Source: Volvox africanus (Eukaryota; Chlorophyta; Chlorophyceae; Chlamydomonadales; Volvocaceae). Taken from it: a stretch of DNA of 64,000 bases. The stretch lies in the NCBI GenBank assembly GCA_030268105.1, contig BSDZ01000014.1, positions 635,501 to 699,500 of the forward strand. The letters are read 5' to 3'. The notes below the pieces were generated by a model. It saw nothing but the letters and a program-made list of their open reading frames with translations, made no database searches and was not told the origin of the DNA. Shown here one piece after another: positions 3,426 to 48,477 of this stretch; position 1 is the stretch's first letter; each line of letters opens with the position of its first letter. The position numbers were made by a program, and so were the translations under genes.

Positions 3426-3779
3426 TGTAGGAAACTACATTTACCTTAGAGAAATAGGCCCAGATAAAGTGGTAGGCAATCATGCAATAAGCATGATGCC
3501 TAACCGAAAACTAACTACGAGTAAACTTCGCGATTTGCAAAGAAGATTGCCGTACATCTTGGCTAGGTGAGCCAATATTAAAGTCACCCTGGTGAAGAGC
3601 TAATGCCTGACATTTTAGTATCACAATATTAATTGTTCGGAGTTCAAGACTCCGCTGTCACCAATTATTCCCATTAGATGTACCATTTCGCGACGCTAAT
3701 TTACTTGCGAGCTATTTCTAAATCTGCAAAAGCTATGCTTCCGCACAAATCTAGTAGTATCCTGAAAGGGACTGCTACA
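3426..3779 (+). repeat. 5' LTR of gypsy element C (354 bp)
   Basis: The LTR begins TGTAGGAAAC and ends CTGCTACA. Its reverse complement closely matches the two LTRs of element B (7451-7804 and 20258-20610). It is unusually rich in hairpins: TAGGCAATCATGC with GCATGATGCCTA (3473-3502, one bulged A), TTGGCT/AGCCAA (3559-3575), TCACC/GGTGA (3584-3595) and CGGAGT/ACTCCG (3638-3654). No 3' LTR of C survives, because C is truncated at about 22067. Confidence 0.92.
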
Positions 3780-3781
3780 AT

Positions 3782-3800
3782 TGGTAGCAAGGGTCTGAGC
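3782..3800 (+). promoter_or_regulatory. Primer binding site of element C
   Basis: TGGTAGCAAGGGTCTGAG follows the LTR after two bases. Element B has the matching site at 20237-20254 on the minus strand (TGGTAGCGAGGGTCTGAG). A TGG start directly after the LTR is the standard layout for a tRNA primer site. The tRNA used was not identified. Confidence 0.7.
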
Positions 3801-3834
3801 AACGATCCTCCTCAGGTGAGATAAACTTTGCGCA

Positions 3835-6800
3835 ATGCCACGCGACACTCCCACCACAACCACAAATCCTCCGCAGCAAAAAGCGCGGAAGGAACTCTTA
3901 CGTTTTAAACGTAAAAATCTCAATGAAATTTTGCGACTAGAGCGTTTAGCCGCCATAGCCGCCAATCGACGACCACATCGGACAAACATTGAACCTACGA
4001 TAACGGTGCCTTCGGCTCCAGTAATTCCCACCAATAATTTTAATAGTAATATTCCTGTTATCCGCGGGCCCCAGGAACCAATGACGGATGAAGGAGATGT
4101 CGCGTTACCTCCCAATGGCCTTCCGCAGCGCACACCAGAACAAACGCGCGCGGCCCAGCACGTCGCAGAAACAATGCGCAACGCAACACATAATCGTGTT
4201 GTTGCATTGGAAGGCGAAATCACGCACCTCAAGGAGTCATTCGAAAATCAGATAGGTGCCCTCCGCGCGGATACGGACCGCACGCGAGCCCTATTAGAAC
4301 AGATTTTCGAACGCCTTTCGGAGCGTTCACAACCATCTGAAGCGGCCGACTCACGCAAAAAAGCGATCCTAGATATTATTTCCACAATCGCTGGGTCGAG
4401 CATCACAACCCTTTTGCCTAAGAATGCCCTCCAGCAAACAACGCTGCAAGCCATCCTAGAGAAGCACCTAGTTCCGGTGCCAACACTCGAGGAGGTTCAG
4501 TCCCTCTGGGTGGAGGCAACCGCACACCTAGCTGGGGTAGCGATTCTCAGACAACCGCCCCAAAATCCAGCCGGCCAAGTGAGGTAAACCCTAATAGACG
4601 GGTTCCACATCCCCCAAAATTTTCTGGGAAGAAGGATAGCACCATCACTTGCACCCGGTCCTGGTTCAATGTACTCATGCAATATTTCGACCTGATGAAC
4701 ATGGACCCATTTGAGCACATAGTGTACTTCTTAACGGGCAAAGCACAGGTCTGGGCAGCAGATGTCCTAGAGATGCACAAGTCGGGCAAGAAACCCCTCA
4801 CACGTGAAACCTTAAGGGTGGCATTTCTCTTGCAATATGGGGACACGCAACACAACACTGCCATGGCAGCAAGGGATCGCTTGCACTCTCATGAATACGA
4901 CATGAAAACTGCTGAAACCATTGCTGAGTACACACAGCGCTTCCATGATGTCCTACATGAAGCTAAGGACATGGATAAAGCCGACCAGATTAGCTGGTAC
5001 ATCAAAGGCTTAGTTCCAACACTTCAGGGTCGGTGTGCAACCAACGATGAGGGCAAGGACTGGCAGGATTTAGATAAATGCATCCTATATGCAGTCGGCC
5101 AAGAGGTCCGGTGGAAGGCAGGGAAAGATAAAACTGCTACCGTTGAGCTGAAAGCGGCTACGGTAACCACCCCTAAATCCAGACATCCCTACCAAAAACG
5201 CCCTATTTCCCGATCTCAACAGGGCTGGCAGTCCGTGAGCAAGAAGCCCCGGACCGACCACACTTCTGACAAGCCTCCTAGTACCTGGTGCCGCTATTGC
5301 CATGGCTTCAAGAAGCCAGGCCAGTCTTGGCCGGACCACGTAGTGGACTGTTCCAAGACGATCAAGGCTGAGGCGGAAAAGAAGTTGGTGCTTGCTGCCC
5401 GGCTCGAATCTAAAATGCACGAATTGGACCCTGGCAAGCGTGTGGAGGAATGTGAACCAGTTAAACTGGTTGCGCCAGATGGAGAGTTTGTGTTGCCCAT
5501 GACCGACAGCCCTCAGACTGCTCGGATGTTCCGGCCTGATGAATTCCGTCAGGTTGAGACCCAACTCGGCCGTCAATTTACCTTTGACGCCACATGTAAC
5601 GATTCGGGCAATAATAGTCTCTGTCCACGTTTTGCCTCTCCATCAAACCCATTTGTGAGCCATAATCTTGCGGGTGAGTTTGCCTGGATTAATCCTCCTT
5701 ACAATCACATTGCTCAATGGCAAAAACACTATATCTCCTGCAAACACAAAGATCCAGAAAATACCTCTGCAGTCTTTGTAGTCCCCAAGTGGAGCTCAAT
5801 AGAGCACAGTATGCGAGCAGCAGGCTTTCGCCTGATCAAAACATATGCACCACGGAAACAATTGTTCCTGAAGAAAAGTTGCACAGGAGTACGGGAGCTT
5901 ATACCCGGTGTCCCATGGCCTCTCCAGCTATGGTATGACCGACCGTCCACTACCGTGCACTTGAACTCCATAGTTGGTTCTGCACCTTCTATGATCTGTG
6001 ATGCTCGACTGTGCCAAATGGCCTGCAAAGTCTTGGCCGATTCCGGTGCCAATTGTAAAGGTACCGCAGACGGGTTTATATCCCTAACAGCCGTTAAGAA
6101 AATGGCCCTTGCTCTCAAACCCACACTTACCAGCTCAGTTAAAGTGGCTAATGGCAACACAGAACTGATTGAGGGCTCAGTTGTTATCAATCTTCAAATT
6201 GACAAGTTCCACGACACAGTCAAACTCCTTGTTCTAAAGCAAGATGTCCCAGGTGTTGATATTATCCTGGCTAATGACTGGTTGGGAAAACGAAAAGCCA
6301 CAATGTGCTGGGCAACTCATACCCTGACAGTGTATAAGAAGCCAAATGATGCGTATACGTTTACGCCATCCCTTTGGTCTTCCCCGGGTATCGACGCTAA
6401 CCTTGATGTGATTACCCTCATGAACTATGTCACTGCAACACTTTATGCAGCGACTACTGTCGAGACGGTATCTGCGAAAGCAGCAGGCAAACGAACTGCT
6501 AAAGGAGCACGGAGTTATCTCCTACTTGTGCAAGCAGAGGAGCACACTCCAACTCCTGACCCCAGTTCCGGTGGGAATAATCTCCTAGCTAATTTGAAGT
6601 TATCAGAATTACTGGAGGAATACAAGGATGTATTCGAGGACCTTCAAGGCCTCCCCCCCGACCGGGACATTGGTCACACGATTCCTTTAGTGGATGGTGC
6701 CATACCACCCGCTAAACGAGCCTATAGGCTCACCCAACTGGAGCAACAAGAGGTCAAGAAGCAAGTTACCGAACTGCTCAATAAGGGATATATCGAACCC

Positions 6801-7450
6801 TCTACCTCACCCTATGGGGCTCCAGTTCTCTTTGTCGAAAAGGCAAATGGGCAAGGACTACGCATGGTCTTAGACTACCGTGCGCTTAATAAACTGACCA
6901 TCAAACGGCGGTATCCCATGCCCAATATTACGGACCTTTTCGACCAACTCCAAGGAGCTACCATTTTCAGCTCCCTGGACTTACAGCAGGGGTATCATCA
7001 AATACTGATCTCTCCCGAGGATGTGGAGAAAACGGCCTTCATAGCCCCAGGCATGGGCCAGTTTCAGTTTAAGGTACTTTGCTTTGGACTTACCAATGCC
7101 CCTGCAACGTTCCAAGCAGTGATGAATCGTGTCTTCACTGACTACATTGGCAAATTTGTGCTAGTGTACTTGGACGATATACTGGACTTTAGTAAGACCC
7201 CGGCCGAGCATGAACAGCACCTCCGTTTGGTACTGTCCTTGCTCCGAAAGCACCAATTCAAGGCAAAATTGTCGAAGTGTCAGTTCAACCGGTTCGAACT
7301 GCACTTCCTTGGCCACAAAGTAAGCCAAGAAGGCTTAAAGGTGGACGACCGCAAAGTAACAGTCATTAAAGACTGGCCTGTCCCCACGGATATTAAGCGA
7401 CTGCGGGCGTTCCTTGGCTTAGCCAATTATTTCAGGAGGTTTATTCAGGG
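3835..7450 (+). pseudogene. Element C Gag-Pol, 5' part: Gag, Dam-like domain, protease, RT
   Basis: The polyprotein begins at ATG 3835, 55 nt after the LTR. A Gag part with an Arg/Lys-rich N terminus and a helical region runs to 4533. There a run of four G (five in B) shifts the frame, and coding continues in the frame of 4677. In that second frame (numbered from 4677) there is a zinc finger C205-C208-H221-C225, a Dam-like methyltransferase domain (277-421), the protease active site LADSGAN (453-459), and RT (about 690-880) with YLDDI at 831-835. The frame then runs into the LTR of B. Apart from the frameshift the domains look intact. B gives the unshifted reading. Confidence 0.93.
5505..5939 (+). 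other. Dam-like N6-adenine methyltransferase domain in element C
   Basis: Between the Gag zinc finger and the protease lies a segment unlike normal gypsy Gag or Pol. It reads FDATCND, then CPRF, then FAWINPPYN (NPPY at residues 339-342 of the frame from 4677), VFVVPKW, a YAPRKQLF block, and PWPLQLWYD. NPPY is the catalytic motif IV of amino-methyltransferases. The order of blocks resembles the phage-type DNA N6-adenine methyltransferase family (Dam, Pfam PF05869), which is also known from DIRS-like retrotransposons. Activity is inferred from motif retention only. Element B carries the same domain with the same NPPY. Confidence 0.8.
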
Positions 7451-7804
7451 TGTAGCAGCCCCTTTCAGTATGCTACTAGATTTGTGCGGAAGCATAGCTT
7501 TTGCAGATTTAGAAATAGCTCGCAAGTAAATTAGCGTCGCGAAATGGTACATCTAATGGGAATAATTGGTGACAGCGGAGTCTTGAACTCCGAACAATTA
7601 GTATTGTGATACTAAAATGTCAGGCATTAGCTCTTCACCAGGGTGACTTTAATATTGGCTCACCTAGCCAAGATGTACGGCAATCTTCTTTGCAAATCGT
7701 GAAGTTTACTCGTAGTTAGTTTTCGGTTAGGCATCATGCTTATTGCATGATTGCCTACCGCTTTATCTGGGCCTATTTCTCTAAGGTAAATGTAGTTTCC
7801 TACA
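7451..7804 (-). repeat. 3' LTR of gypsy element B (left copy)
   Basis: On the plus strand this LTR runs TGTAGCAGCC to TTTCCTACA. It matches the right LTR of B (20258-20610) with about ten substitutions and one single-base indel by eye, roughly 3 percent divergence. That makes B younger than a deeply decayed copy but not brand new. The LTR carries the same hairpins as the C LTR. Confidence 0.95.
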
Positions 7805-7818
7805 TTCCCCCCCCTCTG
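7805..7818 (-). promoter_or_regulatory. Polypurine tract of element B
   Basis: On the minus strand the run GAGGGGGGGGAA lies immediately before the LTR start TGTAGG, the expected place for the plus-strand primer of reverse transcription. Confidence 0.75.
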
Positions 7819-7839
7819 AAGCAAAACGTCCCGGGAGCG

Positions 7840-8487
7840 TCACCGTCTCCTCTTGCATGAGGTTCCTTTCTCAGTGGGTCTCGGCCCTTTGGCTTTGAGT
7901 CTTCGCTCATATTCCTCGATGGCTTCCACCAGAGGATCTGATTCTTTCAGTGATGCCTCGGTTTCATATGTATTGTGAGTGGAATCATATCCTTCCCACT
8001 TGATAAGGTACTCTCGACGAGTTTTACCTCTGCCCCCACGGATTGAGACATCCCGATGATCTACAATGGCTTCAACCATGTAGAATGGTTCACCCTCAAT
8101 AACGAGTGGTGAGGGTGGTTGTCGCTGAGCGTCCTCCTTGAATGGTTTCAGGAGTGACACATGAAAGACCGGGTGTAGGCGAGATTCAGCTGGTAAACCA
8201 AGTTTTACCGCTGTTTCACCGATATTAGCGACAACTGTATATGGGCCGATGAATTTTGGCATCAGCTTCTTAGTTCCAGGTTTTTTAAGGTTAATATTCT
8301 TGGTACTTAACAGCACTTTTTGCCCAACCTCATAACGCTCGGGGCGCCGAGAAGAGTCAGCATCCTGTTTTTGTCTAGATTGCGCAGCCTGGAGACAAGT
8401 TTTAGCGAGTTGCAATCGCTTGCGCATGATGGTGGAGTCATCATCAGCAGCTGGCACTTTCGAGGGTATATGCAGGTCAACCGGCAC
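7840..8487 (-). pseudogene. Element B Pol C terminus: integrase tail and chromodomain
   Basis: The frame starts in the integrase C-terminal region (VPVDLHIPSKVP), passes the KVLLSTKNI and FIGPYTV blocks typical of gypsy integrase tails, and ends in a chromodomain: YMVEAIVDHR, REYLIKWEGY and NTYETE. Chromodomains target chromovirus integration to modified histones, classically H3 lysine 9 methylation. In the last block the usual aromatic-rich NTWEP reads NTYET, so one expected Trp is Tyr. This part is out of frame with the integrase core because 13 nt present in C (21962-21974) are missing near 8508. Confidence 0.9.
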
Positions 8488-8499
8488 ACGCGGTTGCTG

Positions 8500-9526
8500 G
8501 ACACCATTGTCATACCTGTCGAACGTTGTTTGGAGTTATTGATAGCAAACTCAATCAACGGTAAGTGATCATCCCAATCATCCTGATTAGGGGAGATATA
8601 GTGCCGTAATGTCTCTTCCAGTAAGCGGTTCATTCGCTCTGTTTGTCCATCTGTTTGTGGATGGAAGGCTGTGCTCATATGGAGGTGGGTGCCCAATAGG
8701 CGAAATATTTCCTTCCAGAAATTGCTTGTAAAACGTGGGTCCCGGTCAGAGATAATGTTCTTTGGAAGGCCGTGCTGCCGGAATACAGTGGCTACAAAAA
8801 GGCGAGCCAACTCTTCCGCTCCTGCGGTCGTGTGGGTGGGAGCAAAGTGCGTCATTTTGCTCAGCCGGTCCACAAACACGACGATCGCATCATGCCCATT
8901 GCGAGTTGTTGGTAGCTGGGTTATCAAATCCATTGATATGCTCTCCCACACGGAAGAAGGTATGGGGAGCGGCTGCAGCAAACCACCCGGCTTAGTGTTG
9001 GTTGGTTTGTTATGCTGACATTGAGGACAAGACTTGACGTAGGCCTTCACGTCAGTATCTAGTCCAGGCCACCAGTACGTTTGTGCGATCGCTTGTTTGG
9101 TGTGGTCAATGCCGCGGTGGCCAGCGCATGGGGTATCATGATACTCTATCATGATGACCCGTCGTAAGTCAGCTTGATTAGGGATGTAAATCTGGGACCC
9201 ATTGTACCAGAAGTTACCCTTCTTTTTGAGCCGCAGCTTTGCTACCTTAGTTTTCGTGAGATTGAGATCACCGTCATACCCGCGGATGATTCGGTGTCCT
9301 AAGTCGCTGTCAATCAGCACGGCAGAAAGCAAGTTGAGCACCACATCGTGGACCCGACTGATAGGGTCAGCTACGTTCACCCGACCAGGGCGATACTCCC
9401 ATTTAAATGTGAAACGTGATAATCGCTCCATCCAACGAGCTTGGCGGCGGGATAGCTTATCCGCGCTTTTCTGTTCTTGGAGGTATACCAGTGGTTGGTG
9501 ATCCGTGATCAACGTTACATCACTGG
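8500..9526 (-). pseudogene. Element B RNase H end and integrase
   Basis: On the minus strand this continues the RNase H (TDHQPLVYL, the RRQARWMERLS block and VADPISR) into the integrase zinc finger (HDTPCAGHRGIDHTK, then CPQCQHNK). The catalytic core follows: SMDLITQLP, SDRDPRFTSNFW and HPQTDGQTERMN, which supply the D, D and E residues. Element A splits it at 9527. The reading frame is otherwise open up to the 13-nt deletion near 8508, where it shifts away from the tail. Confidence 0.93.
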
Positions 9527-10350
9527 TGTTGTACCTCTCGTTCACGTTTGCTCATAAGTATCTGCACGTCTGGAGACTTTCGACACCGATGCGCGAGCAC
9601 TTGCAAGTACAGCAAGGCAAGCGAGAGCAAACAGAGACAGCGGAAGACTTCAAGACAAAGAGAGATATAACTTACAGTCTTACAGATCGGAACGATGCAA
9701 TGGACGAAATCGCCATCAGCGCCGGAAGCAAGCAATCATCACGCGGCGGTGATTAGCGAAGTTCAGGCTTAGCTCGGGCTAAGTAGAATAGTGTATAGCA
9801 ATAGTAATATAGAACACACGAGTGTTCTCCGGTATCAAATGTCTTGTCTTGCTTAGCCGTCCTCGTGTCTGTTATACTCGCAGTATCGCAATGCCGTACG
9901 ATTCACATTAGGAGGCCGATCCTAGATGTGACAATCCTACTGCGTATAGGCGATGTCTACGCATAACAATGTATAAGCCTTTCCGGCATTCGCATGATGC
10001 AAGGGTCCGGATAACGATATCCGGTTGCAGGGCATGTGTCACGACGAGTGCGGCGCTCTCAACGTGTGCTGTAATGAAGTAATATTATATCAGATAATAT
10101 TACTTATCGTTTCGTAGCACGAGCATAATGCGCACTTCAATGCTTCGGGCTTTCATGCATGCTAGGCGGATTTGCCATGATGCGATGTCGCGATGGATAA
10201 TGACAACATGCCAAATGCATATATAAATGTACACGAATACATTTATATCATGCAGATTCATTCATATGCAATGTGTTCATCACAATAGCACTTCGCCTTG
10301 TAGGATCACATCGACCTACGCATCGGCGGGAAACTAACCGTAGCACAACA
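9527..10350 (-). repeat. 3' LTR of element A (LTR2)
   Basis: The LTR runs TGTTGTACCT to GTAGCACAACA, 824 bp. The conserved hairpins are at 9903-9931 (TCACATTAGGA with TCCTAgATGTGA), 10007-10024 (CCGGATA/TATCCGG, perfect) and 10079-10103 (GTAATATTAT/ATAATATTAC, perfect). The stretch 10272-10350 is identical by eye to the surviving part of the right LTR. Confidence 0.95.
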
Positions 10351-10366
10351 ATTATCCCCCCTCCCG
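10351..10366 (-). promoter_or_regulatory. Polypurine tract of element A
   Basis: On the minus strand CGGGAGGGGGGATAAT lies directly before the LTR. The same tract-LTR junction is seen in element E at 32785-32799. Confidence 0.8.
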
Positions 10367-10409
10367 TATGCAACGTCCTCGCTGCATCATACAGCATTGA
10401 CTGCAGGGG

Positions 10410-11960
10410 TCATTGGGCTTGCGTGGCACGTTTGTGGGCTTCTTCGAGCAGGGGCTTCATGTCCTGTGAGAAGTTGCGTGCCGGTTCCCATGAGTTGTGC
10501 TCGTCGGTATACCCTGTCCACTTAACCAAGTACTCGTGTACTGTCCGCTTACGTCGGTGTCGGCCCACACGACGCGCGCGATAATCTAACACCCGCTCCA
10601 CATCGTAAAACTTCTGTTTACCAGCGATCCAGGTCTCGGGAACTGGTTCGATCGCTGTGGGGGCGTTAGCAGGCTCAGGGACGGGTTCCGTACCACGATA
10701 CGGACGAACAAGCGATGCGTGAAACGTGGGGTGAATGGTCATATCAGCGGGCAATGCAAGCTCCACAGCCACATTCCCAACCATGCGCACGACAGGATAC
10801 GGACCAATCCAGCGAGGTAAGAGTTTTCGGGATCCGTCGGCCAAGGAACACAAGTTCTTGGTGCTTAGCAACACGAGTTGCCCTTCCGAAAACGTCACAT
10901 CCTGCTTGGATTTGTTGTAATATTCCGTTGTTCGTTGCTGCACCGCGTCCAAACATGACTTCGCGTCTGTGATTCGGGACATAAAAGACTTGGCAAAAAG
11001 TTTAGCAGCAGGCACGTTCACTTCCAACTCACGCCACATGGGTAGCGCGGGATGAAATCCGTAGTTGAGAAAGAATGGACTTTTGCCTGTTGAGCGGTTC
11101 ACAGCGTTGTTAAGCGTGAATTCTGCCGCAGTCAAATACGTATCCCAAACAAGTGGTGTGCGACCAGCATAATTGCGCAACATATCACCCAACGTGCGAT
11201 TTGTGCGTTCAGTTTGACCATCAGTCTGCGGGTGATACGCCGTGCTCAGGTTGACGCGCATGCCAACTAGTTTGCAGAGCGCTTCCCAAAACTTAGACGT
11301 GAACTGCCCACCGCGGTCCAAAATCACATTTTTGGGAACCCCGTGTAACCGAACCACATTGTCGAAAAACAAACGTGCGGTTTGCTCAGCCATGCAGGAT
11401 GATGTGCATGGTGCTAGGTGAACCATCTTAGTCAGACGATCGACCATTACGAACACCGCATCGTATCCCCCCTCAGTTTTGGGCAGCGCGACTACGAAGT
11501 CCATGGAAACACTTTCCCAAGGCGCATCCGGGACAGGCAACGGTTGCAACAACCCATGGCCCTTACCGGACAAAGCCTTATTGCGCTGGCACAGACTGCA
11601 TGTCTGGACGAAGTTCGCCGCATCCTTAGCCAAACGAGGCCACCAAAAGGAACGTTGCACCAAGTCGATCAATCGCTTGCTACCAGGGTGTCCTGCTAAT
11701 GGGTCCTCATGGAACCGTGCAAGGATGTCGTAGCGTAGCGCGTCGTCGTTTGGAACGACGATTTGCGTAGCTGCACCCTCCGTCCGTAGCCAAAGGCCAT
11801 TCTGCTTACGAAGGTTTTCTACATTAGCCGGGTCCGCGAACCAGGCGTCTGCGTTGTAGGCAACCTTCAACCGCTCCGCGAGGTCCGTTGCGATCGGTAC
11901 CTCCTCGCTACGCGGCCGCACGACGGGCGCTGCCAAAATTGCAGTGTGTAGCGACGGATG
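10410..11960 (-). pseudogene. Element A integrase and chromodomain
   Basis: After the TGA at 11961 the same frame stays open to 10410. It holds the integrase zinc finger (HEDPLAGHPGSKR, FWWPRL, CSLCQRNK), the DDE core (SMDFVVALPK, DRGGQFTSKFW, HPQTDGQTERTN), and a tail with LLSTKNL and RWIGPYPVV. At the end is a chromodomain with YDVERVLDYR, HEYLVKWTGY and HNSWEPARNF, including all three aromatic positions. The family is therefore a chromovirus. The segment is intact apart from the stop that precedes it. Confidence 0.94.
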
Positions 11961-13007
11961 TCAACTGAGAGCATCGGCAATATTCAATTTACCAGAAATA
12001 TACTCCCAGGTGCAGTCGAACCTAGCTAGGTATTCCATCCACCTAGCCTGACGGCGGTTCAACGTCGGAACGCTTTGCAAAAACGTTAGGGGCTTATGGT
12101 CAGTCTTTAAAGTAAACGGGCGTCCCTCGAGGTAACAGCGCCATTCCTTTAAAGCATGCAGCACGGCCAGAAGCTCCTGTTCCCCGGTGGTGTAGCGAAT
12201 CTCGGCACCAGAAAACTTCTTACTCGTGAAGGCGATCAGTCGCCCTTCCTGTAACAATACAGCGCCGCTTCGAAATATTGAGGCATCAGACACTACCTCA
12301 ACATGAAATGGCAACGAGTAATCAGGGAATGCAAGGGTGACATCTTCGGCAACGATTCGTTTGAGCTCTTCGAATGCCCGCTGGCATTGCGACGTCCACG
12401 ACTCGAGCGAAATGAAAACACCTTTGCGAGTTAAGTTAGTAAGCGGGGCCGCAATGATGGAATATTTTTCAATGAACTTTCGGAAATAATTGGTCAAGCC
12501 AAGGAACTTACGCAGCTCCGTGAGGTTCTGAGGCGCGGGCCAATCGCGAACCACGGCGACCTTCCGCGGGTCCATCTTCACACCGGTGGCCGACACAATG
12601 TGGCCCAAATATTCCACCTGAGGCTGCGCCCAAAAGCATTTGGCGCGTTTAGCAAACAATTGCTCCCGCCTCACAACGTCAAGCACGAGCCGAAGATGCT
12701 CCAAGTGCTCCTCGCGCGTCTTAGAATATACCAACATGTCATCCAGGTAGCAAACAACGAACCTGTCGATAAACGGCCTAAACATTCGGTCCATAACCGC
12801 CTGAAACGTCGCAGGGGCATTCGTCAAACCAAACGATAGGACCATATACTCAAAGTGACCGAAGGGCGTCCGAAAAGCGGTTTTCGGGATATCAGAGGCA
12901 GCGATGCGAATCTGATTGTAGCCCTGTTGTAAGTCAATTGAGGAAAAATAAGCCAAGCCCTTCAGCTTATCCAACAGGTCGTCAACGCGTGGCAAAGGGT
13001 AGCGATT
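11961..13007 (-). pseudogene. Element A reverse transcriptase palm and RNase H
   Basis: This segment lies between two in-frame stops. It contains RT blocks [34 protein letters not shown] and the catalytic VCYLDDMLVYSK. The thumb (FLGLTNYFRKFI) and RNase H (DASIFRSGAVLLQ, GEQELLAVLHAL, KTDHKPLTFLQ, ADALS) follow. The upstream stop TAA at 13008-13010 replaces the Lys of the usual TVKNRYPLP block (AAA to TAA). The downstream stop TGA replaces Arg in ADALSRHP (CGA to TGA). Confidence 0.94.
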
Positions 13008-14471
13008 TTACACCGTATTCACATTTAACCCCCGGTAATCAATGCACATGCGCAAGGTCCCATCCTTCTTACCGACAAACAAAATCGGTGCAGAATACGG
13101 GGATGTGCTGGGGCGTATCATACCCTTCGCGAGCAAATCCGTCACCTGGCGCTTCACCTCGTCCAGCTCCAATGGACTCAACCTGTACATTGGCCGGGCC
13201 GTAGGCTGCGCTCCAGGCACGAGAGGGATTGTGTGATCAACAGGACGCATAGGTGGTAGGCCAGGGATATCTTTAAAGACGTCCTCATACTGCGACAGTA
13301 GGGCCTCAACCTCAGGATCCGCAGAAATCTGTGCGGTGGTGACACAACAGCTCACCCACGGCCTTAAAAGCAGTCCGTGGGCACCCTTCCGTAACAAACG
13401 GACGGCCTCCTTACGCCCAACTAGCTCTGGTTCGATTCGCGCGGCCATTGTGGTCACAGCGAAATTAACCATAGGCACCGCCTCAGCTTCGCCCTCCTTT
13501 GGTGTGACATGTTCGAACGACAGGAAAGGTACCTTAATCGACAGAGTACCCTTGCACATATGCAGGGTTGCGGTCTCCATGTCGATGCGCGCGCGGTACT
13601 GCCGTAATGTCGACGACCCCATTATGTACGGTGCAGTCTCTGCTAAGCCCTGCAGCATGTACGGCCGGGTCACAACACGCAAAGGGCCTATCGATAGGCT
13701 AAGGGTAATCCTGCCCACGATGGGATGCTTACCCCCGTCAGCAAGGGTAACCTGTGGACAATCAGACGACTCTGGGGACAACCCCAGCACATTCACCTCT
13801 GCGACAGAGATGAAGTCGTCGCTGGCACCGGTGTCAACAAGTGCCTTCAGAGTACGGCCATTCAAACCGATCTGAAGCACAGGGACACGGTTATCTACGA
13901 GCGACTGCCCAGCAGACAACGTCAGTGCACTTAGGGCGGGTCCGTAACCTACGGCACCCCCGTCAGGAGCTTCGTACCAAACGTCAACCGAGTAGGATGT
14001 GCTTGGCCACGGAGCCAGCGTACCCTCCCGATCCACACCATTAAACAAAACGGTGCCCGGCTCGAACCGGTGGACATGCCGCATGCCCCTTAACGATGCC
14101 TCTGCCTTGCGCCGACAGAAAGCGGGGAGTAAAACACATGCGGCGGTGCCTGGATATTGATGCCTACACCTCCTGTATATGGCCAACTGTTCCGACATCT
14201 CACGCAGAGACGAGGGGATGAACAAAACCACGTGGTTAGACAGATCGATAGACGACAGGGGACGGCGAGGTGTAAACAAATTACACAACGGGTCAAAGCA
14301 GAGAAGTCCCGTGCGTCCGTCAAGCGTGATGCGTCGCACAATGACTCGCTCGATGTGTCCAAGTACACAAGGCAACAATGCCTTAACGGCTGGCCGTAAG
14401 GATGACCACCGACCACGCGTTAGTTCAGAAATCCCAGGTGGTGCCCCCTCCGCAGGAACCCGGGCAAGCCC
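13008..14471 (-). pseudogene. Element A dead Dam-like domain, protease, RT fingers
   Basis: The frame is open straight after the Gag TAG. Numbered from the Met at 14378, residues 21-138 align with the Dam-like domain of B and C: LCFDPLCNLFTP, IDLSNHVVLFIPSS, ACVLLPAF, FEPGTVLF and STSYSVDVWYE. The catalytic NPPY position reads IPSS (54-57), so methyl transfer is not expected. The protease follows with LVDTGASDDF (Asp182), then the linker and the RT start (ARPMYRLSP, TSPYSAPILFVGKKDG, MCIDYRGLN). Element D has the same IPSS replacement. Confidence 0.85.
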
Positions 14472-15707
14472 CTATTTCGGCTGAGGTACAAACGGCGGCA
14501 TTAGCGGGCAACCCTTCGTGGAATGGCTCTCCGCACACCGTAGACAAACGTTGGCCAATTTCCGACGCTCGAATTCAGAACGATTGCAATTCCATTTTGG
14601 CATATACGTGTCGTCCGTGCGAGTCCGCTTCGCATTGGGGTCGGAACGCTGTGCGGCTGCCGTCGACGGCGCACCACCAAGCTTCCTGTTTTTAGCCGGG
14701 TCCGAGCTCGGACCTGCTCCTCCTGACCCACGGACACCCGAGCTAGCGCCCCCGCGCGCCTGGCGTTGCCGATTGCTGCGTCGCGTCGCGGCAGTAGGCG
14801 TGGGGCGGGTCACTCCGAAGTCCTGGTCAAGAGCTACGGCTTCCCCAAGCGGATCCTGCACTTGCACGGCATTTGCACGAGGGGCAGACTTGACTTCTTC
14901 CTCACCGGCAAGGAGTCGTATCTCCGTGCCCTTAGCAAAAGCGACCAAAGCATCATACGACTTGATCTGCACTCCAACCAAGTCAGTAGCGCACCATTTA
15001 GCCAAAAGTTTCGTCAGGCCTCGCCTAAACCAAAAGACACGCTCGGATTCAGTGAGGTCAGCAATGGGAGTCACAAGTGCTTCGAAGCGTGACTGGTACG
15101 CAGGTACATTTTCATCCCGACGCATGTGGTAGCTACCGGCTGCCAAAACCTTACGAGCTTCCACATCGTGTGCTTGAACCTCAGTAGCAAATCGTGCGAG
15201 CAAAGCGGCGACCAACTCGTCAAAAGTATAGTTGCCCCGGGCGTTGGTCCAATTGCGATACCAGTCCTTCGCTGAGCCCTCGAGGGTGTTACCAACGAAG
15301 AGACACCTGATACCGTCATTATCGCCACCATGAACAGCCTGGAGATACTTTTTAACGTCACGCACGTACGCACGAGTTGCATCGGCTATGCTATGCCCTG
15401 GTGTCTTGTCGGTCAGCGAAATATTGAGCCTAGGAACGGGAATCGACAATCTCATCACCTCAGGGATGTCATCATGCCCTCGAGCTTGAGGTAATGGCAG
15501 AACCCTTGGTCCAGCAGTGTTGTCCATATTCGTGTTCACTGCTGAATGCGGCACAATTAAGTGAGCAGGGGTCTGAAGGACAAGGGGCTCTTGAGTGGCT
15601 CGCGTGCCAACAGTCTCAAGACCTCTATCCGGCGCTCTAGCAGCCACAACAAAATCAGGTTGGCTAGCTAGGCTAGTGTGCGGCGTATCGTCGTGTTCCG
15701 CGGACAT
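14472..15707 (-). CDS. Element A Gag protein
   Basis: This 411-residue open frame has the features of a gypsy Gag: a helical core (AYVRDVKKYLQAV, GSAKDWYRNW, YTFDELVAALLARF, FRRGL) and a basic Ser/Gly/Arg-rich linker. At the C terminus is a short zinc knuckle, VCLRCAESHSTKGC, spaced C-X2-C-X3-H-X4-C, one residue shorter than the usual CCHC knuckle. The Met at 15707 is the first in frame after the leader. The frame ends at TAG, and the same phase stays open downstream, so Pol could come only by readthrough unless the TAG is a mutation. Confidence 0.85.
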   Translation of the reverse strand: MSAEHDDTPHTSLASQPDFVVAARAPDRGLETVGTRATQEPLVLQTPAHLIVPHSAVNTNMDNTAGPRVLPLPQARGHDDIPEVMRLSIPVPRLNISLTDKTPGHSIADATRAYVRDVKKYLQAVHGGDNDGIRCLFVGNTLEGSAKDWYRNWTNARGNYTFDELVAALLARFATEVQAHDVEARKVLAAGSYHMRRDENVPAYQSRFEALVTPIADLTESERVFWFRRGLTKLLAKWCATDLVGVQIKSYDALVAFAKGTEIRLLAGEEEVKSAPRANAVQVQDPLGEAVALDQDFGVTRPTPTAATRRSNRQRQARGGASSGVRGSGGAGPSSDPAKNRKLGGAPSTAAAQRSDPNAKRTRTDDTYMPKWNCNRSEFERRKLANVCLRCAESHSTKGCPLMPPFVPQPK

Positions 15708-16172
15708 GGAGCACGAAGCGATACCCTAGGTTTGCGTAATAGAAGCCGACTTCTATCGCAAAGGCAAGAGTACAAAACAATTCAGTGAGCCTACCGACAG
15801 TACTCTTGAGAAGATTCAGTAAACTCAGCAAGTACTTGCCCAGCTGAGTCCTGATCTCCGTAGTTTGGGCGATGAGAGTCGCCAAATGGTCCGGACGAAA
15901 GCCGGTCTCAGTCGCCGCGGCAAGCAATGCCGGTGCACTGAGATTACCTGCGACTCAGAGCATACACTTACACAACAAGTGCAGCAATCTAAGCAAAAGC
16001 AATTAAACAATTACAAACCGGAAGCGGCGGCGTCCAAAACGGCGCGGCCTAGGTCCTCGGCAAAAGTATCTAGCGGTCCTCGTGGTTCGTCGCTGGAACT
16101 CGCCATAGAAAGAACCTACTTCCGATTAGACAAAGAGAGACAGTTAGGCAACGAACCTGTCTCGATACCAAA
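15708..16172 (-). other. Element A leader and primer binding site
   Basis: This untranslated stretch separates the LTR remnant from the Gag start. On the minus strand it begins with TGGTATCGAGACAGG (16156-16170), the same primer site as at 638-652. It shares several blocks with 324-654. No conserved protein is seen in it. Confidence 0.75.
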
Positions 16173-16251
16173 AGTGTTCATCACAATAGCACTTCGCCTT
16201 GTAGGATCACATCGACCTACGCATCGGCGGGAAACTAACCGTAGCACAACA
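16173..16251 (-). repeat. Truncated 5' LTR of element A (79 bp)
   Basis: Only the outer 79 bases remain (GTGTTCATC to CACAACA), identical by eye to 10272-10350. About 745 bp are missing between the primer site and this remnant. The promoter of the element has therefore probably been lost. Confidence 0.9.
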
Positions 16252-18084
16252 ACTGGCGCCTTCAAGGTAACAACGCCACTCTTCCAGGGCTAAGACAGTG
16301 CCGAGGCACTCTTGGTCTGTTGTTGAGTAGTTGTACTCTGCCTTATTGAATTTAGAACTGGTATAGGCGACAGGGTGGTCATCCTGCAAGAGGACGGCTC
16401 CTGTGCCATGTATTGAGGCATCAGACCAAACCGTGAAAGGTTTATTAAGCTCGGGGAGTTTAAGTACTGGTGCATTTGTCAAGGCATGCTTCACACCCTG
16501 GAAGGCTGTCTCGCAGGCTTCGGTCCAGTGGAAGGGCACTTTCTCACTGGTAAGGGTTGTGAGGAGGGCCACAAGGGAGGAATAACCCTGAATAAACCTC
16601 CTGAAATAATTGGCTAAGCCAAGGAACGCCCGCAGTCGCTTAATATCCGTGGGGACAGGCCAGTCTTTAATGGCTGTTACTTTGCGGTCGTCCACCTTTA
16701 AGCCTTCTTGGCTTACTTTGTGGCCAAGGAAGTGCAGTTCGAACCGGTTGAACTGACACTTCGACAATTTTGCCTTGTATTGGTGCTTTCGGAGCAAGGA
16801 CAGTACCAAACGGAGGTGCTGTTCATGCTCGGCCGGGGTCTTACTAAAGTCCAGTATATCGTCCAAGTACACTAGCACAAATTTGCCAATGTAGTCAGTG
16901 AAGACACGATTCATCACTGCTTGGAACGTTGCAGGGGCATTGGTAAGTCCAAAGCAAAGTACCTTAAACTGAAACTGGCCCATGCCTGGGGCTATGAAGG
17001 CCGTTTTCTCCACATCCTCGGGAGAGATCAGTATTTGATGATACCCCTGCTGTAAGTCCAGGGAGCTGAAAATGGTAGCTCCTTGGAGTTGGTCGAAAAG
17101 GTCCGTAATATTGGGCATGGGATACCGCCGTTTCATGGTCAGTTTATTAAGCGCACGGTAGTCTAAGACCATGTGTAGTCCTTGCCCATTTGCCTTTTCG
17201 ACAAAGAGAACTGGAGCCCCATAGGGTGAGGTAGAGGGTTCGATATATCCCTTATTGAGCAGTTCGGTAACTTGCTTCTTGACCTCTTGTTGCTCCAGTT
17301 GGGTGAGCCTATAGGCTCGTTTAGCGGGTGGTATGGCACCATCCACTAAAGGAATCGTGTGACCAATGTCCCGGTCGGGGGGGAGGCCTTGAAGGTCCTC
17401 GAATACATCCTTGTATTCCTCCAGTAATTCTGATAACTTCAAATTAGCTAGGAGATTATTCCCACCGGAACTGGGGTCAGGAGTTGGAGTGTGCTCCTCT
17501 GCTTGCACAAGTAGGAGATAACTCCGTGCTCCTTTAGCAATTCGTTTGCCTGCTGCTTTCGCAGATACCATCTCGACAGTAGTCGCTGCATAAAGTGTTG
17601 CAGTGACATAGTTCATGAGGGTAATCACATCAAGGTTAGCGTCGATACCCGGGGAAGACCAAAGGGATGGCGTAAACGTATACGCATCATTTGGCTTCTT
17701 ATACACTGTCAGGGTACGAGTTGCCCAGCACATTGTGGCTTTTCGTTTTCCTAACCAGTCATTAGCCAGGATAATATCAACACCTGGGACATCTTGCTTT
17801 AGAACAAGGAGTTTGACTGTGTCGTGGAACTTGTCAATTTGAAGATTGGTAACAACTGAGCCCTCAATCAGTTCTGTGTTGCCATTAGCCACTTTAACTG
17901 AGCTGGTAAGTGTGGGTTTGAGAGCAAGGGCCATTTTCGTAACGGCTGTTAGGGATATAAACCCGTCTGCGGTACCTTTACAATTGGCACCGTAATCGGC
18001 CAAGACTTTGCAGGCCATTTGGCACAGTTGAGCATCAAAGATCATAGAAGGTGTAGAACCAACTATGGAGTTCAAGTGCACGGT
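16252..18084 (-). pseudogene. Element B protease, RT and RNase H
   Basis: The minus-strand frame opens after a TGA at about 18085-18087 and reads the protease (VLADYGANCKG; C has LADSGAN, so the catalytic DSG reads DYG in B). RT follows (TSPYGAPVLFVEKANGQG, FSSLDLQQGYHQI, VLVYLDDILDFSK), then RNase H start (WSDASIHGTGAVLLQ, DQECLGTVLALEEW) up to LEGAS, where element A begins. The DSG to DYG change would inactivate the protease. The TGA corresponds to CGA in C, so the break is a single C to T change. Confidence 0.92.
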
Positions 18085-18093
18085 AGTGGACGG

Positions 18094-20202
18094 TCAGTCA
18101 TACCATAGCTGGAGAGGCCATGGGACACCGGGCATAAGCTCCCGTACTCCTGTGCAACTTTTCTTCAGGAACAATTGTTTCCCTGGTGCATATGTTTTGA
18201 TCAGGCGAAAGCCTGCTGCTCGCATACTGTGCTCTATTGAGCTCCACTTGGGGACTACAAAGACTGCAGAGGTATTTTCTGGATCTTTGTGTTTGCAGGA
18301 GATATAGTGTTTTTGCCATTGAGCAATGTGATTGTAAGGAGGATTAATCCAAGCAAACTCACCCGCAAGATTATGGGTCGCAAATGGGTTTGATGGAGAG
18401 GCAAAACGTGGACAGAGACTATTATTGCCCGAATCGTTACATGTGGTGTCAAAGGTAAATTGACGGCCGAGTTGGGTCTCAACCTGACGGAATTCATCAG
18501 GCCGGAACATCCGAGCAGTCTGAGGGCTGTCGGTCATGGGCAACACAAACTCTCCATCTGGCGCAACCAGTTTAACTGGTTCACATTCCTCCACACGCTT
18601 GCCAGGGTCCAATTCGTGCATTTTAGATTCGAGCCGGGCAGCAAGCGCCAACTTCTTTTCAGCCTCAGCCTTGATCGCCTTGGAACAGTCCACTACGTGG
18701 TCCGGCCAAGACTGGCCTGGCTTCTTGAAGCCATGGCAATAGCGGCACCGGGTACTAGGAGGCTTGTCAGAATTGTGGTCGGTCCGGGGCTTCTTGCTCA
18801 CGGACTGCCAGCCCTGTTGAAATCGGGAAATAGGGCGTTTTTGGTAGGGGTGTCTGGATTTAGGGGTGGTTACCGTAGCCGCTTTCAGCTCAACGGTGGC
18901 AGTCTTATCTTTCCCTGCCTTCCACCGGACCTCTTGGCCGATTGCATATAGGATGCATTTATCTAAATCCTGCCAGTCCTTGCCCTCATCGTCGGTTGCA
19001 CACCGACCCTGAAGTGTTGGAACTAAGCCTTTGATGTACCAGCTAATCTGGTCGGCTTTATCCATGTCCTTAGCTTCATGTAGGACATCATGGAAGCGCT
19101 GTGTGTACTCAGCAATGGTTTCAGCAGTTTTCATGTCGTATTCATGAGAGTGCAAGCGATCCCTTGCTGCCATGGCAGTGTTGTGTTGCATGTCCCCATA
19201 TTGCAAGAGAAATGCCACCCTTAAGGTTTCACGTGTGAGGGGTTTCTTGCCCGACTTGTGCATCTCTAGGACATCTGCTGCCCAGACCTGTGCTTTGCCC
19301 GTTAAGAAGTACACTATGTGCTGAAATGGGTCCATGTTCATCAGGTCGAAATATTGCATGAGTACATTGAACCAGGACCGGGTGCAAGTGATGGTGCTAT
19401 CCTTCTTCCCAGAAAATTTGGGGGGATGTGGAACCCGTCTATTAGGGCTTATTTCACTTGGCCGGCTGGATTTTGGGGCGGTTGTCTGGGAATCGCTACC
19501 CCCAGCTAGGTGTGCGGTTGCTTCCACCCAAAGGGACTGAACCTCCTCGAGTGTTGGCACCGGAACTAGGTGTTTCTCTAGGATGGCTTGCAGCGTTGTT
19601 TGCTGGAGGGCATCCTTAGGCAAAAGGGTTGCGATGCTCGACCCAGCGATTGTGGAAATAATATCTAGGATCGCTTTTTTGCGTGAGTCGGCCGCTTCAG
19701 ATGATTGTGAACGCTCCGAAAGGCGTTCAAAAATCTGTTCTAATAGGGCTCGCGTGCGGTCCGTATCCGCGCGGAGGGCACCCATCTGATTTTCGAAGGA
19801 CTCCTTAAGTTGCGTGATTTCGCTTTCTAATGCAACAACACGCTTATGGGTTGTGTTGCGCATTGATTCCGCGACGTGTTGGGCCGCGCGCGTTTGTTCT
19901 GGTGTGCGCTGCGGCAGACCATTGGGAGGTAACGCGGCATCTCCATCATCCGTCATTGGTTCCTGGGGCCCGCGGATAATAGGAATATTACTATTAAAAT
20001 TATTGGTGGGAATTACTGGAGCCGAAGGCACCGTTTCCGTAGGTTCAATGTTTATCCGATGTGGTCGTCGATTGGCGGCTATGGCGGCTAAACGCTCTAG
20101 TCGCAAAATTTTATTGAGATTTTTACGTTTAAAACGTAAGAGTTCCTTCCGCGCTTTTTGCTGCGGAGGATTTGTGGTTGTGGTGGGAGTGTCGCGTGGC
20201 AT
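18094..20202 (-). pseudogene. Element B Gag with zinc finger and Dam-like domain
   Basis: This 702-residue frame is the unshifted version of the C Gag. It starts 55 nt inside the LTR, has a basic N terminus, a long helical part (ERLSERSQSSEAADSRKK) and the Gag core (YFLTGKAQVWAADVL, YTQRFHDVLHEA, WYIKGL). The zinc finger is CRYCHGFKKPGQSWPDHVVDC, spaced C-X2-C-X12-H-X3-C. The Dam-like domain follows (FDTTCND, CPRF, FAWINPPYN, VFVVPKW, APGKQLF, PWPLQLWYD). The stop right after WYD is TGA where C reads CGA. Gag, methyltransferase and Pol were therefore one polyprotein. Confidence 0.9.
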
Positions 20203-20257
20203 TGCGCAAAGTTTATCTCACCTGAGGAGGATCGTTGCTCAGACCCTCGCTACCAAA

Positions 20258-20610
20258 TGTAGCAGCCCTTTCAGTATGCTACTAGATTTGTGCGGAAGCG
20301 TAGCTTTTGTAGATTTAGAGATAGCTCGCAAGTAAGTTAGCGTCGCGAACTTGTACATCTATTGGGAATAATCGGTGACAGCGGAGTCTTGAACTCCGAA
20401 CAATTAGTATTGTGATACTAAAATGTCAGGCATTAGCTCTTCACCAGGGTGACTTTAATATTGGCTCACCTAGCCAAGATGTACGGCAATCTTCTTTGCC
20501 AATCGCGAAGTTTACTCGTAGTTAGTTTTCGGTTAGGCATCATGCTTATTGCATGATTGCCTACCGCTTTATCTGGGCCTATTTCTCTAAGGTAAATGTA
20601 GTTTCCTACA
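20258..20610 (-). repeat. 5' LTR of element B (right copy, 353 bp)
   Basis: It runs TGTAGCAGCC to TTTCCTACA on the plus strand and is followed by the target duplicate CAGGG (20611-20615). The primer site lies just left of it on the minus strand (20237-20254), and the Gag start codon is 55 nt inside. Confidence 0.95.
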
Positions 20611-22067
20611 CAGGGTTATTCCTCCCTTGTGGGCCCCCTCACAACCCTTACCAGTGAGAAAGTGCCCTTCCACTGGACTGAAGCCTGCGAGGCAGCCTTC
20701 CAGGGTGTGAAGCATGCCTTGACAAATGCACCAGTACTTAAACTCCCCGAGCTTGATAAACCTTTCACAGTTTGGTCTGATGCCTCAATACATGGCACAG
20801 GAGCCGTCCTCTTGCAGGATGACCACCCTGTCGCCTATACCAGTTCTAAATTCAATAAGGCAGAGTACAACTACTCAACAACAGACCAAGAGTGCCTCGG
20901 CACTGTCTTAGCCCTGGAAGAGTGGCGTTGTTACCTTGAAGGCGCCAGTGATGTAACGTTGATCATGGATCACCAACCACTGGTATACCTCCAAGAACAG
21001 AAAAGCGCGGATAAGCTATCCCGCCGCCAAGCTCGTTGGATGGAGCGATTATCACGTTTCACATTTAAATGGGAGTATCGCCCTGGTCGGGTGAACGTAG
21101 CATACCCTATCAGTCGGGTCCACGACGTGGTGCTCAACTTGCTTTCTGCCGTGCTGATTGACAGTGACTTAGGACACCGAATCATCCGCGGGTATGACGG
21201 TGATCCCAATCTCACGAAAACTAAGGTAGCAAAGCTGCGGCTCAAAAAGAAGGGTAACTTCTGGTACAATGGGTCCCAGATTTACATCCCTAATCAAGCT
21301 GACTTACGACGGGTCATCATGAAAGAGTATCATGATACCCCATGCGCTGGCCACCGCGGCATTGACCGCACCAAACAAGCGATCGCACAAACCTACTGGT
21401 GGCCTGGACTAGATACTGACGTGAAGGCCTACGTCAAGTCTTGTCCTCAATGTCAGCATAACAAACCAACCAACACTAAGCCGGGTGGTTTGCTGCAGCC
21501 GCTCCCCATACCTTCTTCCGTGTGGGAGAGCATATCAATGGATTTGATAACCCAGCTACCAACAACTCGCAATGGGCATGATGCGATCGTCGTGTTTGTG
21601 GACCGGCTGAGCAAAATGACGCACTTTGCTCCCACACACACGACCGCAGGAGCGGAAGAGTTGGCTCGCCTTTTTGTAGCCACTGTATTCCGGCAGCATG
21701 GCCTTCCAAAGAACATTATCCCTGACCGGGACCCACGTTTTACAAGCAATTTCTGGAAGGAAATATTTCGCCTGTTGGGCACCCACCTCCATATGAGCAC
21801 AGCCTTCCATCCACAAACAGATGGACAAACAGAGCGAATGAACCGCTTACTGGAAGAGACATTACGGCACTATATCTTCCCTAATCAGGATGATTGGGAT
21901 GATCACTTACCGTTGATTGAGTTTGCTATCAATAACTCCAAACAACGTTCGACGGGTATGACACCATTTTTGCTTAATGGTGTCCAGCAACCGCGTGTGC
22001 CGGTTGACCTGCATATACCCTCGAAAGTGCCGGCTGCTGATGAGTACTCCACCATCATGCGCAAGCG
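20611..22067 (+). pseudogene. Element C RNase H and integrase, resumed part
   Basis: After the duplicated CAGGG the polyprotein of C continues: YSSLVGPLTTLTS, the RNase H (WSDASIHGTGAVLLQ, MDHQPLVYL, RRQARWMERLS), the integrase zinc finger (HDTPCAGHRGIDRTK, CPQCQHNK) and the DDE core (SMDLITQLP, PDRDPRFTSNFW, HPQTDGQTERMN). It keeps the 13 nt that B has lost. The frame runs into minisatellite after the MRKR block, giving an artificial TDGR-rich end. The integrase tail and chromodomain are gone. Confidence 0.93.
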
Positions 22068-22200
22068 AGGGAGTGAATGCAGGACAGACGGAAGACGGGA
22101 GCTATGGAGGGATGGAAGGAAGGAGGGATGGACGGACGGACGGACAGATGGACGAATGGGGAGGGATGAAGGGATGGACGGAGGCAGGTTCTGATGGACG
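22068..22200 (+). repeat. Purine-rich GGAC/GGAT minisatellite
   Basis: Irregular tandem copies of GGAC, GGAT and GGAAGGAGGGAT words fill this stretch. It marks the break point of element C. A much longer array of the same type lies at 59190-59710 beside the KDZ transposase gene. Confidence 0.85.
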
Positions 22201-23945: not shown

Positions 23946-26063
23946 CTCAGCCAGCAAGTTTAGCACACAAGTTTATGTCAGTCCGGCTCTGGGCTACAGC
24001 TTGCGTTCCTCGCCTCAGTTGAATACACGTTCATTGAGCACCCTGGCCTTGCTGCTTAGCAAAGAAATTACGCACATTGGCGCTGTCCAGCTTGGGTAAC
24101 CACTTTTGTCTGTTGTATTCAACTTTGTTCTAGTGCTCGTCCATTTTTGTAGCGTAAGAGCACTAGCTCTGGGCGGCACAGCCGCAGCCCGTTCGACATT
24201 GGGCTGCTTGGCTTGTTTTTATTGGATTACCAGGTGCACTGTAATGTTACCTTCCATTGTTCCGACATTATTTGCAAGTTTGAGTTTCATGCGCGCTAGT
24301 CTTCGTCTGCGCTCATACGTACTTTTACCCTGGGCCAAAATAAACATTTCTATCCCATCGTAAAGAGTTACATTTATACAAAGTCGGGATATGTTCATTC
24401 CTCGCAATTTCTCCTCCACCCCGGAAAAGTTCAAGTGTTGACGTAGGTTCAGTGACGTAAGTCAGCACCCTACTGTCCAGGTGTGAGAGCTGAAGCTATG
24501 GCAAGAACACCTTACTACATGTAGATTACATGTGAGTTCGCATCATTTTACTTCGGTCTTTTCCACCCCACGCAGAGTCCACAAGGAACATTACCAACTT
24601 TCTTATACTTCCTATATCTTTTTGATTGAGTTTCTTGAGACCTGAGCCCTATATGACCATTAGGGCTACTTTAACAGTTAGCTTTTGCTTAAGCTACCCT
24701 GTTCCCACTGCAAGGGCTTTCTGACATTTTTACCTGAAAGCATTGTACAACGGAGCCATCTTCCAAACAGGAGCGACAACTCAACTCAAAATACCGCAAT
24801 ATACCATAGGGGCAACATGCCATGGCAAATTTTCATTTTCGTAAATCCAGACAAGGAACATAGGGATTCCACCCCATCAACTTTCATTCATGTATACAAA
24901 GCGAACAATTAACAGCCATGTTTAATCCTGGGAATCAGATTGCTCCAGCCGTGCGCACAGTCGCATGGGTCAATTATGTAAGAGCAAAGCCACAGCAGCA
25001 ATACCAAGCGCCCGAACATGTAAATCTTACAGTTGCCCATTTGAGAATATCCACATACTACACCAAACATCTTCATCACACTTGTCGCTGACCGGCTGCT
25101 TCTCACACTGCGGTATTCTATAAACTCCACTTGAGGGATGTCAAGGAAAAAGGAGATAAGGACTTGGCTTTTGCATACAATGGGCGAACCAGCTGTGTGG
25201 ACCGCCCAGTACATGTCGAACCGTTTCAGGCTATTCAGCATGTGGTTCACACTGCTGGCGTTCATGCACCTTGCTGGGAACAAGTGAACCAATAGCTAAA
25301 CTGCGTAACATCCACATCCATGCGGTGATTCATGACACAACCATGCTAACAAACAATACATGACCTACCGATTCACCTAGCTGCCAGATGCCACAGTACC
25401 ATAAAGTCAGGGCTAAATTCATAATTGTGAACGTACCTGGCGTTCGCCCAGGAATATAAGGCTCGTGCTCCATGCCCGGGAAGCAGCCTGGCATCTGCTC
25501 ACTTACGCAGGGTACAGACATGGCCCTGTCACTATACTGAGGACTAGAAAAAGGAGTTAAGGGCTTAACTAAACAATGATGTTTATCATACTGGTCGTTC
25601 AGAGTCGTTATAGGCAAGTGTATGGCTGCGGATAGCAGCTGTGGCTTTCAGGTTACAACAGGATTTCACAGAATTCATTAGGCGGAGGCACAAGCCCAAA
25701 TACTTCTGATGATCAATTTCGATATCTGATGCTGAATTCACTTTCAAAACTGATCAATCAACACATAATATGCGAGCGACCCTCTTGCTCACCATCACGG
25801 AACATGCTGCCGCTTTGGGGCGGCGACAAACCACACTTGCCACAAAGGACACCCTGATGCACTACAAATAGGGATATGGTACAGACCAAGAATGCAGCCA
25901 GGTACCAATCCAAAGGGTGTGGTCAGGCAGGCATGCTAAACATAACCCAACGGTGCATCCAGAGGGAAGCTTGGCAGTCCATCAGGCAATGTGAATTACG
26001 AACCCAAAGGAATGCACCATGCAAGGGCATCATATACGCGACGCAAAGGATGGATGTGGGAAG
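23946..26063. other. No gene recognised between low-complexity tract and KH/WW gene
   Basis: Several short open frames occur (for example 24909-25292 minus) but no known domain or convincing splice chain was seen. The right part probably holds the 3' untranslated region of the KH/WW gene. Confidence 0.35.
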
Positions 26064-47910: not shown

Positions 47911-48170
47911 CAGTTGCCAAAGAGATGAGGGGAAGTGCCGAACCTGTAGTCATAGCACCGATGCAGCTACCAAGAGGGCAGATGTGAAAGGATTAAGAGA
48001 CACCAGTGTGAATGGCTGTGGCGCATCATACTTCCGTACCTCGACAGGATATGAGGTATCAAGCAAAGCAACCTGTTGGCATGAAAGGTAAAGAGCGTTG
48101 AAGAGACCTGTTCCCGTTGGGAAGGACAGAACCCTGCGCATATTTGTGAGCTCAGCAGAAGCTAGACATG

Positions 48171-48477
48171 CTACATGCTGTGGTAATAAGATACAGCTGC
48201 TGTATCAGGACGTTGCTGCTTAAAGGTGTGATAGTGATTGAGTCGGGCTTGGAGGTGGTGAAGTGAGGAGGGGATCAGATGGACGGTGTGCCCGCTGAGG
48301 TCAGCCGGAGAGAGGGGACGTCCACGAGGTGCCAGAAGGCTACACGCGGAGTCGAACCCTGCCTTAACAGCCAAATTGTCAGATGAGAACTGGTGACCGA
48401 TAGCAGTCTCAAGGTCAGCAAGGACCTCTGGGACTGTTGTATCCCACTTCGCTGCTCTTGCAGTTATCTGCACTCTC
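48171..48477 (-). pseudogene. Element D dead Dam-like domain
   Basis: The frame reads LADLETAIGHQFSSDN, FDSACSLLAPRGRP, DLSGHTVHLIPSSL and RPDTAAV. It aligns block for block with the Dam-like domain of B (VETQLGRQFTFD, CPRFASP, NLAGEFAWINPPY, ENTSAVFVV), but the catalytic NPPY reads IPSS, as in element A. The beginning of the listed open frame (48478-48542) comes from the LTR and not from D. Confidence 0.75.

Follow-up and report, generated by a model that had tools for sequence, protein, structure and literature searches.

In a 64,000-nucleotide stretch of the Volvox africanus genome (contig BSDZ01000014.1, positions 635,501 to 699,500; hereafter the window), two gypsy-type long terminal repeat (LTR) elements, designated E and F, each carry a Dam-like domain of 168 residues, placed after the Gag zinc knuckle and ahead of the protease. 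Sequence comparisons showed that this domain is homologous to the phage Dam adenine methyltransferases, that it is built into the polyprotein at this position, that it exists in three divergent classes in one genome, and that it has been constrained over the long term.

Nested gypsy elements carrying the domain

Positions 3426-22068 form a three-level nest of LTR elements, with element G inserted in F and F inserted in E, and a 5-bp duplication is found at every junction. F occupies 7451-20610 on the minus strand, antisense within the reverse transcriptase of E, and G occupies 9527-16251 on the minus strand, within the RNase H of F and flanked by the duplication ACTGG. E and F are members of the same family, termed class I, and their coding arms are 96-99% alike. 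Because F sits reversed inside the reverse transcriptase of E with CAGGG on both sides, the two are independent insertions, as an earlier note made from the sequence alone had proposed. The features of the nest, together with one further domain copy, are as follows.

3426..3779, plus strand: 5' LTR of E, 354 bp, TGTAG...CTACA (repeat analysis)
4719..5012, plus strand: Gag domain of E, PF03732, 25.9 bits
5289..5351, plus strand: zinc-knuckle-like CRYC...H...C of E Gag (sequence reading)
5436..5939, plus strand: Dam-like domain of E, 168 residues, NPPY at 5691-5702 (profile and hhalign comparisons)
6009..6341, plus strand: aspartic protease of E, RVP_2 (Pfam)
6840..7322, plus strand: reverse transcriptase of E, RVT_1 (Pfam); F interrupts E after 7450
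7451..7804, minus strand: 3' LTR of F, which differs from the F 5' LTR by 10 mismatches and 1 gap over 354 positions
7903..9526, minus strand: F resumed, with the remainder of RNase H, integrase (H2C2, rve), SH3-like domain and chromodomain (7903-8085)
9527..16251, minus strand: G, class III gypsy element with chromodomain; ACTGG at 9522-9526 and 16252-16256
13962..14471, minus strand: class III form of the domain in G; VLFIPSS (14208-14228) replaces WINPPY
16255..18024, minus strand: protease, reverse transcriptase and start of RNase H of F, cut by G
18094..20202, minus strand: single open reading frame (ORF) of F, 702 residues, Gag and Dam-like domain, with a stop codon right behind the domain
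18097..18600, minus strand: Dam-like domain of F, 168 residues, NPPY at 18334-18345 (profile and sequence reading)
18685-18747, minus strand: zinc knuckle of F (sequence reading)
20258..20610, minus strand: 5' LTR of F; CAGGG duplicate at 7446-7450 and 20611-20615
20611..22068, plus strand: E resumed, with RNase H and part of the integrase; similarity to F stops at about 22068
48007..48470, minus strand: another copy of the domain in its class III form, with a frameshift

The LTRs of F end in TGTAG...CTACA and F is flanked by the CAGGG duplication, as expected of a gypsy element, and its order of RVP, RVT_1, RNase H, H2C2/rve and Chromo (46.9 bits) is that of a gypsy chromovirus, so that this part of the earlier note was confirmed by the chromodomain; the rve match of F (30.5 bits) falls slightly below the cut-off of 32.6. 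G contains integrase and chromodomain matches and a Gag match below cut-off. Identity of the window elements as DIRS elements was rejected because RVP_2 and integrase domains are present.

Both domains contain CPRF, WINPPYN, VFVVPKW and PWPLQLWYD, and the series starts with FDTTCND in F and FDATCND in E; the domain that the earlier note had described by these motifs was thus found by sequence reading in both copies, between zinc finger and protease. In F, the protease (RVP_2) is encoded in the ORF that follows the one for Gag and the domain. The stop codon directly behind the F domain lies at 18091-18097 and may be either a lesion or a regulated stop; E is open at the same place.

Relation to phage Dam adenine methyltransferases

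Three profile libraries matched the domains of E and F. The cut domains matched PF05869 with 25.9 and 25.2 bits (E 9e-6 and 1.5e-5; 22 bits on the long ORFs), PHROG 111 DNA methyltransferase with E values of 6e-5 and 3e-5, and TIGR01712 phage_N6A_met with E values of 3e-4 and 6e-4. When the E domain was compared by tblastn to 50,697 phage records, 111 records matched at E ≤10 (best 3e-3), and of the 20 rows listed, 18 bear the name methyltransferase or methylase, the others being Gp62 and a hypothetical protein. No close relatives were found in viral contigs.

A comparison by hhalign to a profile of 12 phage Dams gave 96.2% (P 2.6e-9, score 59.2). As controls, the best of 60 shuffles gave 0.015 (score 20.5) and the reversed sequence 0.17 (score 14.2). 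With eight residues around NPPY masked, the score was still 28.8 (E 5e-4), and a five-sequence alignment covering all classes also matched phage Dam (92.7%, 4e-7). The domain has the same succession of features as the phage enzymes of PF05869 and TIGR01712, namely an FTLDAA-like strand, C-x-x-F, W-x-NPPY and a hydrophobic strand with VP at its end; it differs from them in being embedded in a Gag-Pol polyprotein. On the strength of these alignments, we consider a relationship to the phage Dam adenine methyltransferases very probable.

We also considered that the likeness to Dam is due to chance, or that the domain has another fold, for example an acetyltransferase-like one. A Foldseek search with a model built from the window only (three sequences) placed acetyltransferases in the top rows (best E 4e-3, none ≤0.001), and a second fold comparison with low-confidence models returned acetyltransferases mixed with adenosine methyltransferases. 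However, both models were poor, with a predicted local distance difference test (pLDDT) value of 56.5 for the window-only model and 45.5 for a model whose alignment included three phage Dams; the shuffled sequences never exceeded 20.5 against 59.2, the score survived masking of the motif, and the three libraries point to one family. We therefore regard this alternative as very unlikely. The structure prediction that the earlier note had called for yielded mixed matches, which speak neither for nor against a methyltransferase fold, and a sequence search for solved structures returned no relative, with one match at chance level.

Distribution, constraint and possible activity of the domain

The V. 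africanus genome (141 Mb, 126 contigs), whose chlorophyll a/b-binding genes mark a photosynthetic host, was searched with the domain, and 150 of 1753 candidates were scored, leaving 1603 unscored. For class I, 65 copies were fetched, some of them partial, with smaller fragments excluded. NPPY is encoded in some frame in all 65; 56 copies have a single open frame, including 50 full-length ones. Sister copies that are ∼60–66% identical to class I are decayed, and one of them, L104 (∼60% identical), reads INPPY behind a stop codon. Class III accounts for 68 of the 150 scored places, at 26–29% identity to the class I domain, and 25 of its copies were fetched. Its frames reach 1356 residues, zinc knuckle, domain and protease are arranged as in class I in the loci read, and the domains of the two classes are homologous across 140 residues (hhalign 98.1%, 6.5e-14).

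Class I domain pieces were also observed in regular arrays on contigs C100 (1965746-1983496) and C32 (477262-524910), with spacings of ∼3.1 or 3.7 kb and 15.7 kb.

The earlier note took the presence of NPPY in both E and F as a sign of selection in the parent element. Because the copies are young, its survival in these two is no evidence of selection, and that argument had to be dropped. Among the young class I copies, nonsynonymous and synonymous changes (N:S) in the domain numbered 13N:4S internally and 56N:22S terminally, a dN/dS of ∼1, and the absence of changes around NPPY was within chance (P 0.31 for the longest change-free run; P 0.19 for the four NPPY codons). In copies with a readable reverse transcriptase, that region gave 7N:1S and 18N:13S, compared to 4N:1S and 18N:12S for the domain (15 of 29 reverse transcriptase stretches used; the other 14 had indels, stops or low ungapped identity and were set aside). 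As a selection test, the comparison of young class I copies by dN/dS was discarded, as it has no power. On a longer scale, class I compared to the decayed L100 and L101 gave a dN of 0.19 and a dS of 0.61–0.66, a ratio of ∼0.3, which is an upper estimate because L100 and L101 are decayed, and class III subfamilies differ by a dN of 0.44–0.58 with synonymous sites saturated. These values indicate that the protein has been constrained over the long term both with and without NPPY. Selection in the parent, as the earlier note supposed, is thus supported for the whole domain on the longer scale but not by the young copies, in which the domain behaves like the reverse transcriptase.

We propose that a gypsy element ancestral to this chromodomain lineage captured a phage-Dam-type adenine methyltransferase domain, which became fixed behind the Gag zinc knuckle and ahead of the protease. 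Because it adjoins the nucleocapsid zinc knuckle in Gag-Pol, the domain would enter the particle together with the RNA and still be there when cDNA is made, in contact with the RNA or cDNA of the element. A binding role may be what all classes keep, which would explain class III. In class I, where NPPY is kept, the domain most likely methylates, or until recently methylated, adenine of element nucleic acid, and in class III, where motif IV is lost, only a non-catalytic role would remain. We hold this explanation as a whole, with capture, a binding role and probable class I methylation, to have an even chance of being right. Enzymatic activity of the class I domain, taken by itself, we judge slightly less likely than not. 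The fuller picture, in which class I is a functional LTR family that packs an adenine N6-methyltransferase of its own into its particles and marks element cDNA or RNA with it, while class III re-uses the same domain as a conserved pseudo-enzyme, is tentative and rather doubtful.

Several observations weigh against this explanation. The best PF05869 score of 25.9 bits misses the curated cut-off of 28.1, and the TIGR01712 score of 20.2 is far under its own cut-off of 97.05. Because the score is under the curated cut-off, we file the domain as a divergent relative of PF05869 and not as a member; the family assignment of the earlier note thus stood as homology but not as membership. Among the eight columns that are invariant in 12 phage Dams (start Met excluded), class I retains six (T, D, N, P, P and F), and two are changed (L to V and R to K). 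Class I also differs from the phage enzymes in lacking the near-invariant W and P of the N-terminal D-x-W-x-T-P and the R of G-R. The missing W and P and the two changes make activity less likely, but still possible. The fit of the low-confidence models to acetyltransferases is similar to, or better than, that to adenosine methyltransferases, and purifying selection on the domain was not seen among the young class I copies. The sisters L100 and L101 read NSAY. All 25 fetched class III copies have TPSS or IPSS at motif IV and no NPPY (ILFTPSSL in 15, VLLIPSSL in 9 and VVLIPSSV in 1; G reads VLFIPSS), and class III alone did not match phage Dam (hhalign 0.5%; no match to a phage record). The three decayed places of class II read NAPF once and NARL once, and the third lacks the stretch. 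Loss of NPPY in most copies, which the earlier note had named as telling against its proposal, is thus absent from the class I copies fetched and complete in the class III copies fetched. Since motif IV is missing from classes II and III, the domain is not retained there for the sake of catalysis, and its retention thus outlasts the loss of catalysis.

These losses bear on the reading that every class, class I included, has a pseudo-enzyme whose Dam-derived fold serves only to bind or organize nucleic acid or to aid particle assembly, with NPPY in class I as an undecayed remnant. It accords with the constraint on class III despite the lost motif, with the absence of the phage-motif W, P and R from class I, and with the DIRS-like Dam domains of the same genome, which read CPPL, RPPL or CPTL at motif IV in 28 of 30 pattern-readable loci and NPPY in none; methylase domains of DIRS1-type elements are described as catalytically inactive in PMC3537659. 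On the other hand, NPPY (in all 65 copies fetched) and the D of FDA/TTCND persist in class I and in L104, which is ∼40% diverged, whereas NPPY was lost from the other classes. Drift would be expected to strike NPPY in class I too, though independent lineages are few. We consider a pseudo-enzyme in all classes a serious possibility that nevertheless falls somewhat short of even. A further reading is that the domain methylates adenine in RNA, namely the genomic RNA of the element, and not in DNA. Its nearest sequence relatives found are, however, phage DNA methyltransferases, and the model at pLDDT 56.5 ranks acetyltransferases equally high; we consider this reading unlikely.

Captured domains in other elements and further features

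The Dam profile gave 106 matches in this genome, 28 of them above the Dam cut-off, in DIRS-like elements. The label DIRS-like rests on the reverse transcriptase and Dam domain in the one ORF scanned, because Pfam found no tyrosine recombinase, which was read in one ORF. Their Dam domain matched phage Dam (hhalign 97.1%, 5e-11). A direct domain comparison, in which the class I side (A1) included a class III row, gave no match (0.9%) and so no support for an origin of the gypsy domain from these elements; its source may have been a phage, a bacterium or a DIRS element. The host has three MT-A70 loci, and thus its own adenine methylation machinery; for a cytosine methyltransferase, one short match was obtained.

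According to published descriptions, DIRS elements carry Dam domains and gypsy elements carry cytosine methyltransferases (PMC5890265; PMC3783388; PMC6338049), so that capture of methyltransferases by retrotransposons is already known; here a Dam-type domain sits in the Gag-Pol of a chromodomain gypsy lineage. The DIRS domain (PMC3783388; PMC3537659) is likewise a PF05869-type domain in a eukaryotic retrotransposon, but it lies behind RNase H, whereas the gypsy domain lies ahead of the protease, and the window elements have LTRs, a protease, a DDE integrase and a chromodomain. KnitGypsy-Dnmt3 (de Mendoza 2018, PMC5890265) is a gypsy polyprotein with a captured DNA methyltransferase under long-term purifying selection, but its enzyme is a cytosine methyltransferase, described there as structurally unrelated to Dam. 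An orchid gypsy lineage (PMC9289625) also carries a domain acting on N6-methyladenine, but this m6A demethylase is an eraser, encoded in a separate ORF of 25-kb elements, with activity shown in vitro. In Ectocarpus (PMC12477816), accessory domains have been captured by algal transposons, and NADAR lies at the start of Pol in a gypsy element, a similar place; it is of another family, and the adenine/cytosine N-methyltransferase of Sola1 sits in a DNA transposon. We found no description of a Dam domain in a gypsy element in the open-access literature (subscription journals and Repbase were not covered, and novelty is provisional). If the fuller picture given above is true, class I would provide the first writer of Dam type known from a gypsy polyprotein. 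One genome thus houses sister families with an active and a dead motif, both with long intact frames. Comparing them is a natural way to ask if adenine methylation encoded by an element is of consequence, or if the particle also puts the fold to some non-catalytic use.

Elsewhere in the window, Copia-like polyprotein ORFs were read at 1474-2448 and 50172-54138, and a 300-bp direct repeat (49408-49707 and 56252-56551, 99%) probably represents the LTRs of the latter. ORFs resembling repeated KH RNA-binding domains were read at 26030-27462 on the minus strand. Isolated pieces of eukaryotic large-subunit rRNA, away from any complete rRNA gene of the window, lie at 35399-35762 on the minus strand. 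In the genome, pieces of light-harvesting genes form a tandem array on contig C10 (4737357-4773407) with a spacing of ∼4.4 kb.
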